Shown: one piece after another, positions 34,645 through 42,535 of the stretch
Position numbering within the stretch: position 1 is the first letter of the stretch
Layout: each line of letters starts with the position of its first letter
NCBI RefSeq assembly: GCF_001984155.1
Contig: NZ_MTQO01000054.1
Location: 1,116,001 to 1,180,000 of the forward strand
Reading direction: 5' to 3'
From: Actinosynnema sp. ALI-1.44
Lineage (GTDB): Bacteria; Actinomycetota; Actinomycetes; Mycobacteriales; Pseudonocardiaceae
Length of the DNA stretch: 64,000 bases
Position numbers and translations under genes: made by a program
Notes under the pieces: model-generated
Databases searched by the model: none
Told to the model about the DNA's origin: nothing
What the model saw: the letters and a program-made list of their open reading frames with translations, nothing else

Positions 34645-35742
34645 CTACAGCGTAGTACCCCAGTCCCGGTTCATCGCCTCCTCGATGAGGGTTTCCACGA
34701 TCTTGCTCTCCGGCACGGTCCGGATCACCTCGCCACGGACGAAGATCTGGCCCTTGCCGTTGCCGGACGACACGCCGAGATCCGCCTCCCGCGCCTCGCC
34801 GGGCCCGTTGACCACGCATCCCATCACGGCGACGCGCAAGGGCACGGGGAAACCGTCGAACGCCGCCGTGACCTCCTCGGCCAGCTTGTAGACGTCCACC
34901 TGCGCACGTCCGCACGACGGGCACGACACGATCTCCAGCCGCCTCGGCCGCAATCCGAGCGACTCCAGGATCTGCGTGCCCACCTTGACTTCCTCGACGG
35001 GCGGCGCGGACAGCGACACCCGGATCGTGTCGCCGATGCCCGCCGCGAGCAGGACACCGAAGGCGACCGAGGACTTGATGGTGCCCTGGAACCGCGGCCC
35101 GGCCTCGGTCACACCGAGGTGCAGCGGGTAGTCGCAGCGCGCCGCGAGTTTGCGGTACGCGTCGATCATCACCAGCGGGTCGTGGTGCTTGACCGAGATC
35201 TTGATGTCCCGGAACCCGTGCTCCTCGAACAGCGAGCACTCCCACAGCGCCGACTCGACCAGCGCGTCCGGCGTGGCCTTGCCGTACTTCTCCAGCAACC
35301 GCTTGTCCAGCGATCCGGCGTTGACGCCGATCCGGATCGGCACGCCCGCGTCCGAGGCCGCCGACGCGATCTCCCGCACCTTGTCGTCGAACTGCCTGAT
35401 GTTGCCCGGGTTGACCCGCACCGCGGCGCAGCCCGCGTCGATCGCGGCGAAGACGTACTTGGGCTGGAAGTGGATGTCGGCGATCACCGGGATGGTGGCG
35501 CTTTTGGCGATCCGGGCGAGCGCGTCCGCGTCGTCCTGCGAGGGCACGGCCACCCGGACGATCTGGCACCCGGCCGCCGTCAGCTCGGCGATCTGCCGCA
35601 GTGTGGCGTCCACGTCGGACGTCACGGTCGTCGTCATGGACTGGACGCTCACCGGCGCGTTCCCGCCGACCGGGACGTCGCCGACGAGCACTTGACGGGA
35701 CTGCCTGCGCAGCGTCGGCGGGCCAAGCTGTACCAGGGTCAA
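34645..35742 (-). CDS. ispG: 4-hydroxy-3-methylbut-2-enyl-diphosphate synthase (IspG)
   Basis: This 365-residue enzyme of the MEP pathway converts MEcPP to HMBPP with a [4Fe-4S] cluster. It has [20 protein letters not shown], the TIM-barrel segments [19 protein letters not shown] and [15 protein letters not shown], and the cluster cysteines in [13 protein letters not shown] and [12 protein letters not shown]. The start is TTG at 35742, overlapping the dxs stop as TTGA; conserved sequence begins close behind. It is the last MEP gene of the encapsulin operon and is full length. Confidence 0.95.
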
Positions 35743-37457
35743 GACAGTGCCTCCAGGCGTTTGAGCACAGTGGTCGCGATACCGGCCGCGTCGAGGCCGT
35801 GTGCCCGCAGGATCTCGGCGCGGGACGCGTGCGGGAGGAATCTCGGCGGCAACGCGAACGTCGCCGCACACGTGTCGGAACCGTTGGCAGCCAACGCCTG
35901 CGCGATCCGCCCGCCGAGCGCACCGGGGGTCGTGGTGTCCTCGACGGCCACGACCAGCCGGTGTTTGCCCGCCAGTTTCAGCAGGCTGGGGTCCACCGGA
36001 GCGATCCAGCGCGGATCGACCACGGTCACCGGCACGCCGTGGGCCGCCAGTTCGTCCGCGGCTTCGAGGCAGGCGGCGGCCAACGACCCGACCGCGACCA
36101 GCAGGACCTGCGCCGACGGGGCTTCCCGCAGCACGTCGCAGTGACCGGTTCGCCGCACGGCCGGGATGTCCGGACCAGCGGTGGCTTTGGGGTAGCGGAC
36201 GACAGTCGGTCCGTCGTGCACGTCGACCGCTTCCCGCAACAACTCCCGCAACCGGGCCGGGTCCCGCGGGCTGGCCAGCCGCAGACCGGGCACGACCGGC
36301 AGGATCGACGAGTCCCACATGCCGTGGTGGCTCGGCCCGTCCGGCCCGGTCACCCCGGCCCGGTCCAGCACGAACGTGACCGGCAGCCGGTGCAGTGCCA
36401 CGTCCAGCAGCACCTGGTCCACCGCGCGGCTCAGGAACGTCGAGTACACCGCCACCACCGGGTGCATCCCGCCGATCGCCAGGCCCGCGGCGGACGTCAC
36501 CGCGTGCTGTTCGGCGATGCCGACGTCGAAGATCCGGTCGGGGAAGCGGGCCGCGAAGCCCGCCAGCCCGGCGGGCTCGGCCATCGCGGCCGTGATGCAG
36601 ACCAGGTCGTCGCGCCGAGCTCCGAGCGCGGTGATCTCGTCGGCGAACACCGAGGTCCACGTGGGTTTGCGGACGGCACCGGCCGGGCCGACCGCGTGCA
36701 GCCGGTCGGCCTCGTCCTGCTCGGCCGCCGGGTAGCCCTTTCCCTTGCGTGTCAGGCAGTGCACCACGACCGGCCGGTTCAGCCGGACCGCCCTGCGCAG
36801 CGCCTGCTCCAGGTCGGGGATGTCGTGCCCGTTCACCGGGCCGATGTAGGCCAGGCCCATGTCCTCGAACAGGTTGCCGCTGCCCTCGTAGCGAAGCACG
36901 GCGAGATGGCTGGCGATACCGCCGATCGTTGGCGCGTACGAGCGGCCGTTGTCGTTCAACACGATGACCACCGGACGGTCCGGTGCGGCACCGATGTTGT
37001 TCAACGCCTCCCAGCACATCCCGCCGGTCAGCGCGCCGTCGCCGAGCACGGCGACAACACGCCGATCGCTCTCGCGCAGCGAGAACGCCTTGGCCAGACC
37101 GTCCGCATAGGACAGTGCGGTGGACGCGTGCGAGTTCTCGATCACGTCGTGGTCGGACTCCGAGCGTGACGGGTAGCCGGACAGCCCGTCGGCCTGCCGC
37201 AGCGAGTCGAAGTCCGCCGCGCGCCCGGTGAGGATCTTGTGCACGTAGGCCTGGTGCCCGGTGTCGAACAGCAGCACGTCGTCGGGTGAGTGGAACACCC
37301 GGTGCAGTGCGATGGTCAGCTCGACCGCGCCGAGGTTCGGCCCGAGGTGCCCGCCGAAGCGCGACACCTTGTCGACGAGGAAGTCCCGGATCTCGCCGGC
37401 CAGCACGGCCAGGTCGGACGGGGACCGGGACACCAGATCGGCGGGATCGGTGATCAT
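35739..37457 (-). CDS. dxs: 1-deoxy-D-xylulose-5-phosphate synthase, short form
   Basis: This is a 572-residue thiamine-diphosphate enzyme that joins pyruvate and glyceraldehyde 3-phosphate, the first MEP step. It shows [20 protein letters not shown], the ThDP motif [18 protein letters not shown]...NDN, and the transketolase-like half with GIAEQHAV. It is about 50-60 residues shorter than usual: after [17 protein letters not shown] it jumps straight to [17 protein letters not shown], omitting the loop segment found in housekeeping Dxs. It is likely a pathway-specific paralogue. ATG at 37457 overlaps the ispH stop (ATGA). Confidence 0.94.
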
Positions 37458-40842: not shown

Positions 40843-41119
40843 GTGTTCGACCGCCTTGTTCCTAGTTGATCGGTTGAGCAGTTGAGCGGTGGGGACGAAG
40901 CCGGGATTCGACGCTGGCCGATGCCGAGGGAATCGAGGGCCCCATGGGTGAGGCGCACATCGGCCAGCGCCCGCTCGGCCACCTTGACCGGTGAGGGCAC
41001 CACACCTTTGCCTTCCCAGCCGTTGGGAGCGCCGACGGCCGACTGGGCGGACAGATGTGGCAACGGTCAAGGTCTGGTGGCCGAGGGGAAGGGGGGACCG
41101 ATCTACCGTCTGGCTCGCG
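40843..41119 (-). other. Gap between the two shell genes
   Basis: This 277-base stretch separates the shell genes. I see no coding potential, no tRNA and no convincing hairpin. Its length allows an internal promoter, so the second shell gene and the enzymes could be expressed independently of the first. Confidence 0.4.
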
Positions 41120-42535
41120 TCACTCGGCGCGGCCCAGTTGGACGTTCTCCAGCACGCCCAGCGCGTCCGGAACCAGGATCGCCGCCGAGTAGTAGGCGCT
41201 CACGAGGTAGGACATGACCGCCTTCTCGTTGATGCTCATGAACCGCACCGACAGGCCGGGCTGGTACTCGTCGGGCAGGCCGGTCTGGTGCAGGCCGATC
41301 ACACCTTGGTTCTGCTCGCCCACACGCATCGCGACGACCTGCGTGGTCCCCCTGTCGGTGATGGGAATCTTGTTGCACGGCAACACAGGGATGCCACGCC
41401 ACGACGGGACCTGGTTGCCGTTGAGGTCGATGCTCTGCGGGTAGAGACCGCGCTTGTTGCACTCCTGGCCGAACGCCGCGATCGCACGCGGGTGCGCGAC
41501 GATGAACATCGGGTCCTTCCACACCGTCGCCAGCAACTCGTCCATGTCGTCCGGCGTCGGCGGACCGCTGCGCGTCGGGATGCGCTGCTTGAGGTCGGCG
41601 TTGGCCAGCAGGCCGAAGTCGCCGTTGTTGATCAGCTCGTGTTCCTGGCGCTCGCGCAGCGCCTCGATGGTCAGCCGGAGTTGTTGCTCCGTCTGGTTCA
41701 TCGGCTTGTTGTACAGATCCGCGACCCTGGTGTGGACGCGCAGCACGGTCTGCGCGACGCTGAGTTCGTATTCGCGCGGTGAGAGTTCGTAGTCGACGAA
41801 CGTGCCTGGGAGTTCCGGTTCACCGTCGTGACCGGACGCCAGCTGGATCTCTGCTTCACCGTGCAGGTTCTGTGCTTTCGTCGGACTTTCCCGATACGCT
41901 GTCACGTGCTCGCGCAGCGCGTCGGACTGGTCCTGCAATTCCTGGAACGCCCGCTTCGGGAGGGCGAGGATGATCGTCGGGGTGACCGCCTTCGCGGTGA
42001 ACTCCCAGATGCTTTGATCCTGGATGAGTGCCTGGTCGCCGAAGTAGTCGCCGTCGACGAGCGTGCCGAGCACGGTCAGGTCACCGTACTCGCCGGTGCC
42101 GATCTTGTTCACCTTGCCGTGCGCGACGACGTAGACGAACGCGGCCTCGTGGCCGAACTCGGCGATCACGTCACCGGGCTGGTATTCCTGTTGCTGGAAG
42201 CGGCCCGCCAGGGCGTGCAGCGTCTCCTCGTCCTCGAAGGTGCGCAGCAGCGGCAGTTCGACCAGGTCCGGTCCGACGATGTTGGCCTGTGCACCGGTGT
42301 TGGTGACCGCGATCCGACCGTCGCCCACGGTGTAGCTCAGCCGCCGGTTGACCCGGTACGCCCCACCCTGGGCCTGGACCCACGGCAGGATCCGCAGCAG
42401 CCAGCGCGAGCTGATGCTCTGCATCTGCGGAACTGATTTGGTGGTCGTCGCCAAATTCCGCGCTGCCGCGGTGGCAAGGCTCTGCTGTTGGTCGCCGTTC
42501 TCTACGCCAAGATTCGACTCCACCGTGTCGGTCAC
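41120..42535 (-). CDS. Family 2B encapsulin shell protein (first copy)
   Basis: This 471-residue protein has the same architecture as the copy downstream. An N-terminal arm ([20 protein letters not shown]) and [20 protein letters not shown] lead into the cNMP-binding-like domain, about residues 80-220 ([40 protein letters not shown]). The HK97-type shell then resumes with [31 protein letters not shown] segments and [20 protein letters not shown]. It is the first gene of the operon, with GTG at 42535. Two tandem shell genes indicate a two-component shell, as known for some actinobacterial family 2B systems. Confidence 0.92.

Follow-up and report, generated by a model that had tools for sequence, protein, structure and literature searches.

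A two-shell family 2B encapsulin operon of Kibdelosporangium with an extra set of isoprenoid precursor genes, and candidate terpene cyclase cargo encoded elsewhere in the genome

What does an encapsulin make, and which enzymes does it enclose, when its operon holds a prenyl diphosphate synthase and precursor genes and no terpene cyclase? This question is raised by a locus in a 64,000-nucleotide stretch of the genome of Actinosynnema sp. ALI-1.44 (contig NZ_MTQO01000054.1, positions 1,116,001 to 1,180,000; hereafter the window), a soil actinobacterium that we counted as Kibdelosporangium within a sample of eight genomes of that genus, with Actinocrispum wychmicini grouped in. On the minus strand, at 34645-42535, two shell genes (enc1 and enc2) are followed in transcription order by the gene of a prenyl (polyprenyl) diphosphate synthase (PT), ispH, dxs and ispG. 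Open reading frames and profile matches place these six genes where a preliminary description of the DNA had put them (Table 1). The explanation that we favour, with confidence slightly above even, is that the shell, the enzymes of the methylerythritol phosphate (MEP) pathway and PT together serve terpene cyclases that bear targeting tags and would be loaded in trans. The intergenic distances are 277 bp (enc1-enc2), 4 bp (enc2-PT) and 28 bp (PT-ispH); ispH and dxs overlap by 4 bp, and dxs and ispG also overlap. No ATG, GTG or TTG codon is present at the expected start position of ispG, where the likeliest start codon is a CTG.

Both shell proteins fall within the HK97/encapsulin family. Enc1 and Enc2 match PF19307 with 460.9 and 451.6 bits (cut-off 22.8) and the family 2B shell model NF041163 with 768.7 and 747.3 bits (cut-off 400). 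The inserted cyclic nucleotide monophosphate (cNMP)-binding-like domain of the preliminary description is found in both, in the E-loop region, as PF00027 at residues 116–203 of Enc1 (56.9 bits) and 111–198 of Enc2, ahead of the PF19307 part. Identity between the two proteins is 63.8% overall; it falls to 43.2% across the inserted domain and rises to 73.7% across the C-terminal HK97 part. In both inserted domains, a tryptophan presumably occupies the position where a phosphate-binding arginine would be expected by comparison with PKA and CRP. Inserted domains of 2B shells bound no cyclic nucleotide according to PMC12407261, which also distinguishes Enc1 from Enc2 by TVWK versus RRRK and places PT directly downstream of Enc2 in operons with a PT and a terpene cyclase (TC/PT operons). 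Diagnostic motif 1 is TVWK in our Enc1 and RRRK in our Enc2, and the two shell genes lie within 10 kb. The best solved relative of Enc1 is 9bje (666 bits), and 9bje, 9bix and 9bhu all align over the full length of the window shells. We take 9bje to be Enc1 of Streptomyces lydicus because it shows TVWK and the AVDFHGHSLP quoted in PMC12407261. The source genome has no PF19307 matches besides the two window shells, and in each of the eight genus genomes two shell matches reach E ≤ 1e-80. The RNA family RF02735 (Sernc350, a Saccharopolyspora antisense sRNA; gathering threshold 50) matches the plus strand at 41991-42498 (190.9 bits) and 40313-40823 (170.6 bits), opposite the first half of each shell gene; the matches may stem from nothing more than conservation of the shell coding sequence, or may indicate that 2B shell genes have an antisense RNA.

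PT matches PF00348 with 198.4 bits and, above its cut-off of 450, the model NF041169, 'family 2 encapsulin nanocompartment cargo protein polyprenyl transferase', with 487.1 bits. Together with the NF041163 scores this substantiates the earlier assignment of a two-component family 2B encapsulin with a cargo-family PT. A disordered N-terminal extension of 50–100 residues is expected of encapsulin-associated PTs; here, 57 residues precede the Pfam domain, but the alignment to the solved structure 3nf2 begins at residue 17. The first Asp-rich motif is DDVID, with HNFSLLH just before it and a phenylalanine five residues ahead of DDVID. A second NF041169-type PT is present in two genus genomes (L313, 7.8-10.7 kb, and L314, 9.5-11.6 kb, where L numbers denote compared loci or stretches; 462 and 450 bits); in both it adjoins an untagged class I cyclase, in a stretch with no shell match.

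The three genes after PT are extra copies. IspG, IspH and DXS score over their family cut-offs (PF04551, PF02401 and TIGR00204), and housekeeping copies lie elsewhere in the source genome (ispG at C51:238638, ispH at C47:352788 and dxs at C44:347757, each given by contig). In trees, all three operon genes fall in clades separate from the housekeeping copies; the automatic group label mixes some operon copies with others, and the placements were read directly instead. Given the extra copies and the separate clades, these genes may fairly be taken as a dedicated isoprenoid supply. The 'dedicated isoprenoid factory' of the preliminary description is supported as regards an additional, co-directional MEP trio; a need for the trio is less certain, as K. 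persicum (L006, 11.0-11.6 kb) retains the shells and PT with no ispH-dxs-ispG between PT and the glyoxalase-like gene. This gap could be a natural deletion or a non-acquisition and makes K. persicum a useful comparison strain.

Comparison across related genomes bears out the locus as a conserved arrangement. The order enc1-enc2-PT is present in all eight genus genomes, with the trio directly after PT in seven, and the six-gene order recurs in other Pseudonocardiaceae. A Kibdelosporangium-type locus also occurs in a record labelled Rhodococcus rhodnii NRRL B-16535 (L004, JOAA01000001.1), which is probably mislabelled. Enc1 relatives (E ≤ 1e-80) occur in 197 and dxs relatives (E ≤ 1e-150) in 89 of 297 Pseudonocardiaceae genomes. 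Outside the genus, at least 38 of 42 dxs relatives with ≥70% identity have a 2B shell no more than 15 kb away (33 among the shell matches listed and five in the stretches L252, L253, L256, L257 and L264), although these are not 42 independent events because the genomes are related. For the remainder, L254 and L261 have no shell in 20 kb, and G168 and G287:C42 (genome and contig) lay outside the comparison. The operon dxs also groups with the dxs of two shell loci from other families (L199 and L204; support 100/99), both long-branched. Among 19 stretches chosen by dxs (L246-L264), the six-gene set is found in 10, two shells with PT and dxs in 16, and no shell in three. Among 21 stretches chosen by shell gene across genera (L265-L285), PT is found in 19, ispH in three, ispG in one and dxs in none. 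Since PT is common in these shell-chosen stretches but MEP genes are rare, the presence of the trio defines a sub-type. When 396 Actinomycetota genomes were drawn evenly, 17 proved to encode a shell that exceeds the 2B cut-off; two or more MEP genes are present in four (L188, L199, L204 and L205) of the 20 shell-centred stretches taken from 15 of these genomes. A shell gene is found in the stretch at 22 of 80 named PT loci (80 kept of 312). A 2B shell gene of Nonomuraea gerenzanensis (L317, 3.0-9.4 kb) is accompanied by ispH, dxs and ispG in a different arrangement, with a distant PT-like match.

The preliminary description left the final product undefined; cyclases in related operons and tag-bearing cyclases in Kibdelosporangium now narrow the choice. 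Cyclase-like genes, at least one per stretch, separate the two shell genes in eight of the 21 shell-chosen stretches (L265, L266, L269, L270, L275, L276, L279 and L285) and also in the dxs-chosen L250-L253 and L264. The cyclase of L269 is of the geosmin type (NF041168, 1221 bits; cut-off 1200), as are two half-length genes of L250 that stay under that cut-off (282 and 581 bits). L253 has a 2-methylisoborneol (2-MIB)-type cyclase (NF041167, 507 bits; cut-off 400) and a geranyl diphosphate C-methyltransferase (GPPMT; 527 bits, cut-off 400). Its order, enc1-geosmin type-2-MIB type-GPPMT-enc2-PT-ispH-dxs-ispG, is a superset of the Kibdelosporangium operon, which has no cyclase and just the 277-bp spacer between enc1 and enc2.

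Cyclases of both kinds are encoded elsewhere in the Kibdelosporangium genomes. An NF041167 cyclase over the cut-off is present away from the shells in all eight genus genomes, and GPPMT adjoins it in all eight (NF041943, 517.3 bits in the source genome). Its best solved relative is 2-methylisoborneol synthase 3v1v (159 bits). In the source genome, this cyclase does not adjoin a shell gene, being on contig C43 with the shells on C51. A geosmin-type cyclase is likewise present in 8/8 (1099-1135 bits). The motifs GPTGLGT and GPTGLGTSAAR of cyclases have been proposed to target cargo (PMC8346489). The 2-MIB-type cyclase of the source genome has the N-terminus MTDILFGPSGLGTSAAR, a GPTGLGT-type tag. 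An N-terminal GPxGLGT(S/T)AAR is found in seven of the eight 2-MIB-type cyclases: five species share an identical LFGPSGLGTSAAR, GPFGLGTSAAR occurs in one and GPSGLGTTAAR in K. banguiense, while the Actinocrispum sequence is degenerate (ELSGLGMSAAR). All eight geosmin-type cyclases, read by eye, have a GGP(N/H)GLGTAG-like linker and a PTGLGTSAAW-like C-terminus, with substitutions in L291 and L293. These higher counts come from sequences read by eye; a strict regular expression under-counted the tags, matching six of eight 2-MIB-type cyclases. No tag-like motif is present in two further class I cyclases of the genus, which are encoded beside the second PT genes. In the plasmid collection, the nearest relative of the 2-MIB-type cyclase (N. 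gerenzanensis, 51.7%) comes immediately after a 2B shell gene, and so does a relative from Streptomyces sp. BHT-5-2. The window shells are the sole family 2 shells open to the tagged cyclases, as the source genome has no further PF19307 match.

We propose the following scheme, in which assembly, loading, flux and products are predicted from gene identities, copy numbers, clades, linkage and tags. Enc1 and Enc2 would co-assemble into one mixed shell, by analogy with the S. lydicus pair. DXS, IspG and IspH, judging by gene order, clades and linkage, would raise the supply of isopentenyl diphosphate (IPP) and dimethylallyl diphosphate (DMAPP); nothing suggests that they are themselves cargo. PT, as its cargo-family match implies, would condense IPP and DMAPP to a short allylic diphosphate, either at the shell or within it. 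The final enzymes would be class I terpene cyclases, which stand between enc1 and enc2 in several relatives and elsewhere in the Kibdelosporangium genome, and the unlinked ones are predicted to enter the shell in trans via their GPSGLGTSAAR-like tags. The predicted products are 2-MIB-like methylated monoterpenoids (C11), geosmin-type sesquiterpenoids or both. We regard it as an even call whether 2B shells can be served by distantly encoded cyclases, those of Kibdelosporangium having left the operon with their tags retained. If they did, what remains of the operon would be a terpenoid compartment of general use, into which tagged cyclases are loaded in trans.

Several observations weigh against this scheme. 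None of the eight geosmin-type cyclases reaches the NF041168 cut-off of 1200, and only one of them matches the strict tag pattern. The unlinked 2-MIB-type cyclase is only ~39% identical to its counterpart in L253. The strict tag is absent from several cyclases in shell-bearing stretches (e.g. L188, L199, L204 and L265), and the tag is therefore neither necessary nor proven sufficient. Tags may persist without shells; a Streptomyces plasmid (L316) encodes a tagged cyclase with no shell within ~4 kb on either side. A phenylalanine five residues before the first Asp-rich motif, as in PT, points to a C15–C20 chain; geosmin requires a C15 precursor and 2-MIB a C10 precursor. The absence of the trio from the K. 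persicum locus also belongs here.

In a first alternative, the shell holds PT alone and passes a linear diphosphate, such as geranylgeranyl diphosphate (GGPP), to unrelated cytosolic enzymes, the unlinked cyclases being independent of the shell and their tags relics. PT is the sole cargo-family enzyme in an operon without a cyclase, its second-best NCBIfam model is IdsB GGPP synthase, the aromatic residue before DDVID agrees with a C15–C20 product, and the tags of the geosmin-type cyclases are drifting. However, the 2-MIB-type cyclase has kept its tag in seven of eight species, whereas the other cyclases of the genus have none, and related operons have cyclases of both kinds between enc1 and enc2. 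We consider a compartment of this kind unlikely, though it is the strongest of the competitors. Doubt may also fall on the trio, which could be a general flux booster that travels with PT genes and has no functional tie to the shell. Its absence from K. persicum would fit, as would ispH, dxs or ispG beside shell-less PT genes (L013, L016, L019-L021, L053 and others; L254). The close linkage of the dxs lineage to 2B shells outside the genus, and its grouping with dxs of the two other-family shell loci despite their long branches, make this improbable.

A further alternative was considered because a cassette of cysD-cysNC and sulfotransferase genes adjoins the operon in all eight genus genomes. 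In one larger cluster, cysD-cysNC would supply 3′-phosphoadenosine-5′-phosphosulfate (PAPS), and the sulfotransferase, a short-chain dehydrogenase/reductase (SDR), a SnoaL-like protein and a 387-aa protein would finish a product begun in the shell, a sulfated isoprenoid. The whole sulfation block is kept in 8/8, even in Actinocrispum, whose 20-kb flanks otherwise differ save for a glyoxalase-like neighbour. The cysD-cysNC pair is additional to other cysD copies in the genome, and no terminator-like site was found in the cysNC-enc1 gap. Against this, other members of the family have the cassette but no shells beside it: cysD-cysNC accompany the 387-aa gene at 16 of its 19 close loci, none of the 19 has a shell in the stretch, and neither cysNC nor a sulfotransferase is found at any of 74 named PT loci outside the block-bearing ones. 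KstR-like palindromes stand at the cassette, and related sites at the cysD promoter, but upstream of enc1 none was found at ≤2 mismatches in seven loci. The best solved relative of the sulfotransferase is 2zq5 (520.5 bits), which we take to be Mycobacterium tuberculosis Stf1 (Rv3529c). Rv3529c-Rv3531c, with the Rv3531c promoter, belong to the mycobacterial KstR/cholesterol set (PMC1995591 and PMC6429209). We set the sulfated product aside as very improbable, and the PAPS and sulfotransferase genes are probably a separate KstR-like-controlled unit outside the encapsulin system. Upstream of enc1, at 42536-42878 (minus strand), alignment identifies a block CTTTTGGGTGACTGCG ... GGTGCTAGCCTC that is conserved in all eight genus genomes and is a possible promoter of the encapsulin operon's own; a sigma-70-type promoter scan of 34000-49500 found no site.

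In itself, the operon is a typical representative of an encapsulin class already described. According to PMC8346489 (Andreas and Giessen 2021), 900 PT operons are known, 888 of them in Actinobacteria, and family 2B PT systems occur with terpenoid-precursor genes. Like the PT and TC/PT operons described there, ours has 2B shells with an inserted cNMP-type domain, two of them as is often the case there, and PT as putative cargo; in contrast, it has no cyclase, and its predicted cyclase cargo is far off in the genome. The pair resembles Sl-Enc1/Sl-Enc2 of S. lydicus in the upstream TVWK and downstream RRRK proteins, PT after Enc2 and similar shell identity, and differs in that the S. lydicus operon has a xylulose kinase (PMC12407261). 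Co-assembly of a mixed shell was demonstrated for S. lydicus only (PMC12407261). The closest operons, L252 and L253 of Pseudonocardiaceae, have Enc1, Enc2, PT, ispH, dxs and ispG in the same order but differ in having cyclases of the geosmin and 2-MIB types, and GPPMT, between Enc1 and Enc2. What is new is the MEP trio as extra copies, the linkage of a dxs lineage to 2B shells, the unlinked tag-bearing cyclases and the separate sulfation unit; in the openly accessible literature (subscription papers and supplements being outside our scope), nothing was found on unlinked 2B cyclase cargo or on Kibdelosporangium encapsulins. The locus points to a testable answer for the product identity and enclosed enzymes of PT-type 2B encapsulins. 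The published cargo search covered 20 reading frames around the shell gene (PMC8346489). If loading in trans is true, surveys confined to the shell neighbourhood overlook real cargo, and the dxs linkage would make precursor supply a working part of compartment biology.

Table 1. Features of the window and unlinked cyclases of the source genome (G000)
Feature	Position	Strand	Description
enc1	41120-42535	minus	family 2B shell, 471 aa; PF19307, PF00027, NF041163, TVWK
enc2	39451-40842	minus	second family 2B shell, 463 aa, GTG start; PF19307, NF041163, RRRK
PT, prenyl (polyprenyl) diphosphate synthase	38406-39446	minus	putative cargo, 346 aa; PF00348, NF041169
ispH (4-hydroxy-3-methylbut-2-enyl diphosphate (HMBPP) reductase)	37454-38377	minus	extra copy; PF02401, 320 bits
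dxs (1-deoxy-D-xylulose 5-phosphate synthase)	35739-37457	minus	extra copy, short form, 572 aa; PF13292/PF02779/PF02780; TIGR00204, 544.5 bits (cut-off 466)
ispG (HMBPP synthase)	34645 to ~35742	minus	extra copy; PF04551, 475.9 bits
cysNC and cysD	42879-45622	minus	sulfate activation, PAPS supply; NF004035, 952.3 bits; TIGR02039, 454.9 bits
SnoaL-like, 387-aa protein, SDR, sulfotransferase	45645-49242	plus	divergent neighbours
KstR-like palindrome TAGAACGCGTTCTA	46154-46167	plus	perfect; upstream of 387-aa gene
KstR-like site	45633-45646		at the PAPS/sulfotransferase cassette
2-MIB-synthase-type cyclase	G000:C43:423794		unlinked; NF041167, 463.9 bits (cut-off 400)
geosmin-type cyclase	G000:C51:1041086		unlinked, ~115 kb from shells; NF041168, 1124 bits

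The neighbouring cassette, conserved across Pseudonocardiaceae, brings its own sulfate activation genes and may be a unit for steroid-linked sulfation. The 387-aa gene is conserved in 122 of 297 genomes of the family, mostly apart from shells in the loci viewed; the idea that its product is a new terpene cyclase was ruled out on this distribution and on a solved relative, 6ans, of unknown function (2.2e-30). The cassette shares with M. tuberculosis Rv3529c-Rv3531c the order sulfotransferase-SDR-hypothetical protein and a KstR-type site (PMC1995591 and PMC6429209), the orthology being in part our assumption, and differs from it in the divergently linked cysD-cysNC; the comparison concerns this unit and not the encapsulin operon. 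The KstR-like motif has six matches at ≤2 mismatches in the window, against 0.28 expected. The palindrome upstream of the 387-aa gene has no mismatch in the window or in the seven further genus loci (7/7), and in 20 other loci none was found in L173 and L178, two mismatches are present in L170, and the remaining 17 have at most one.

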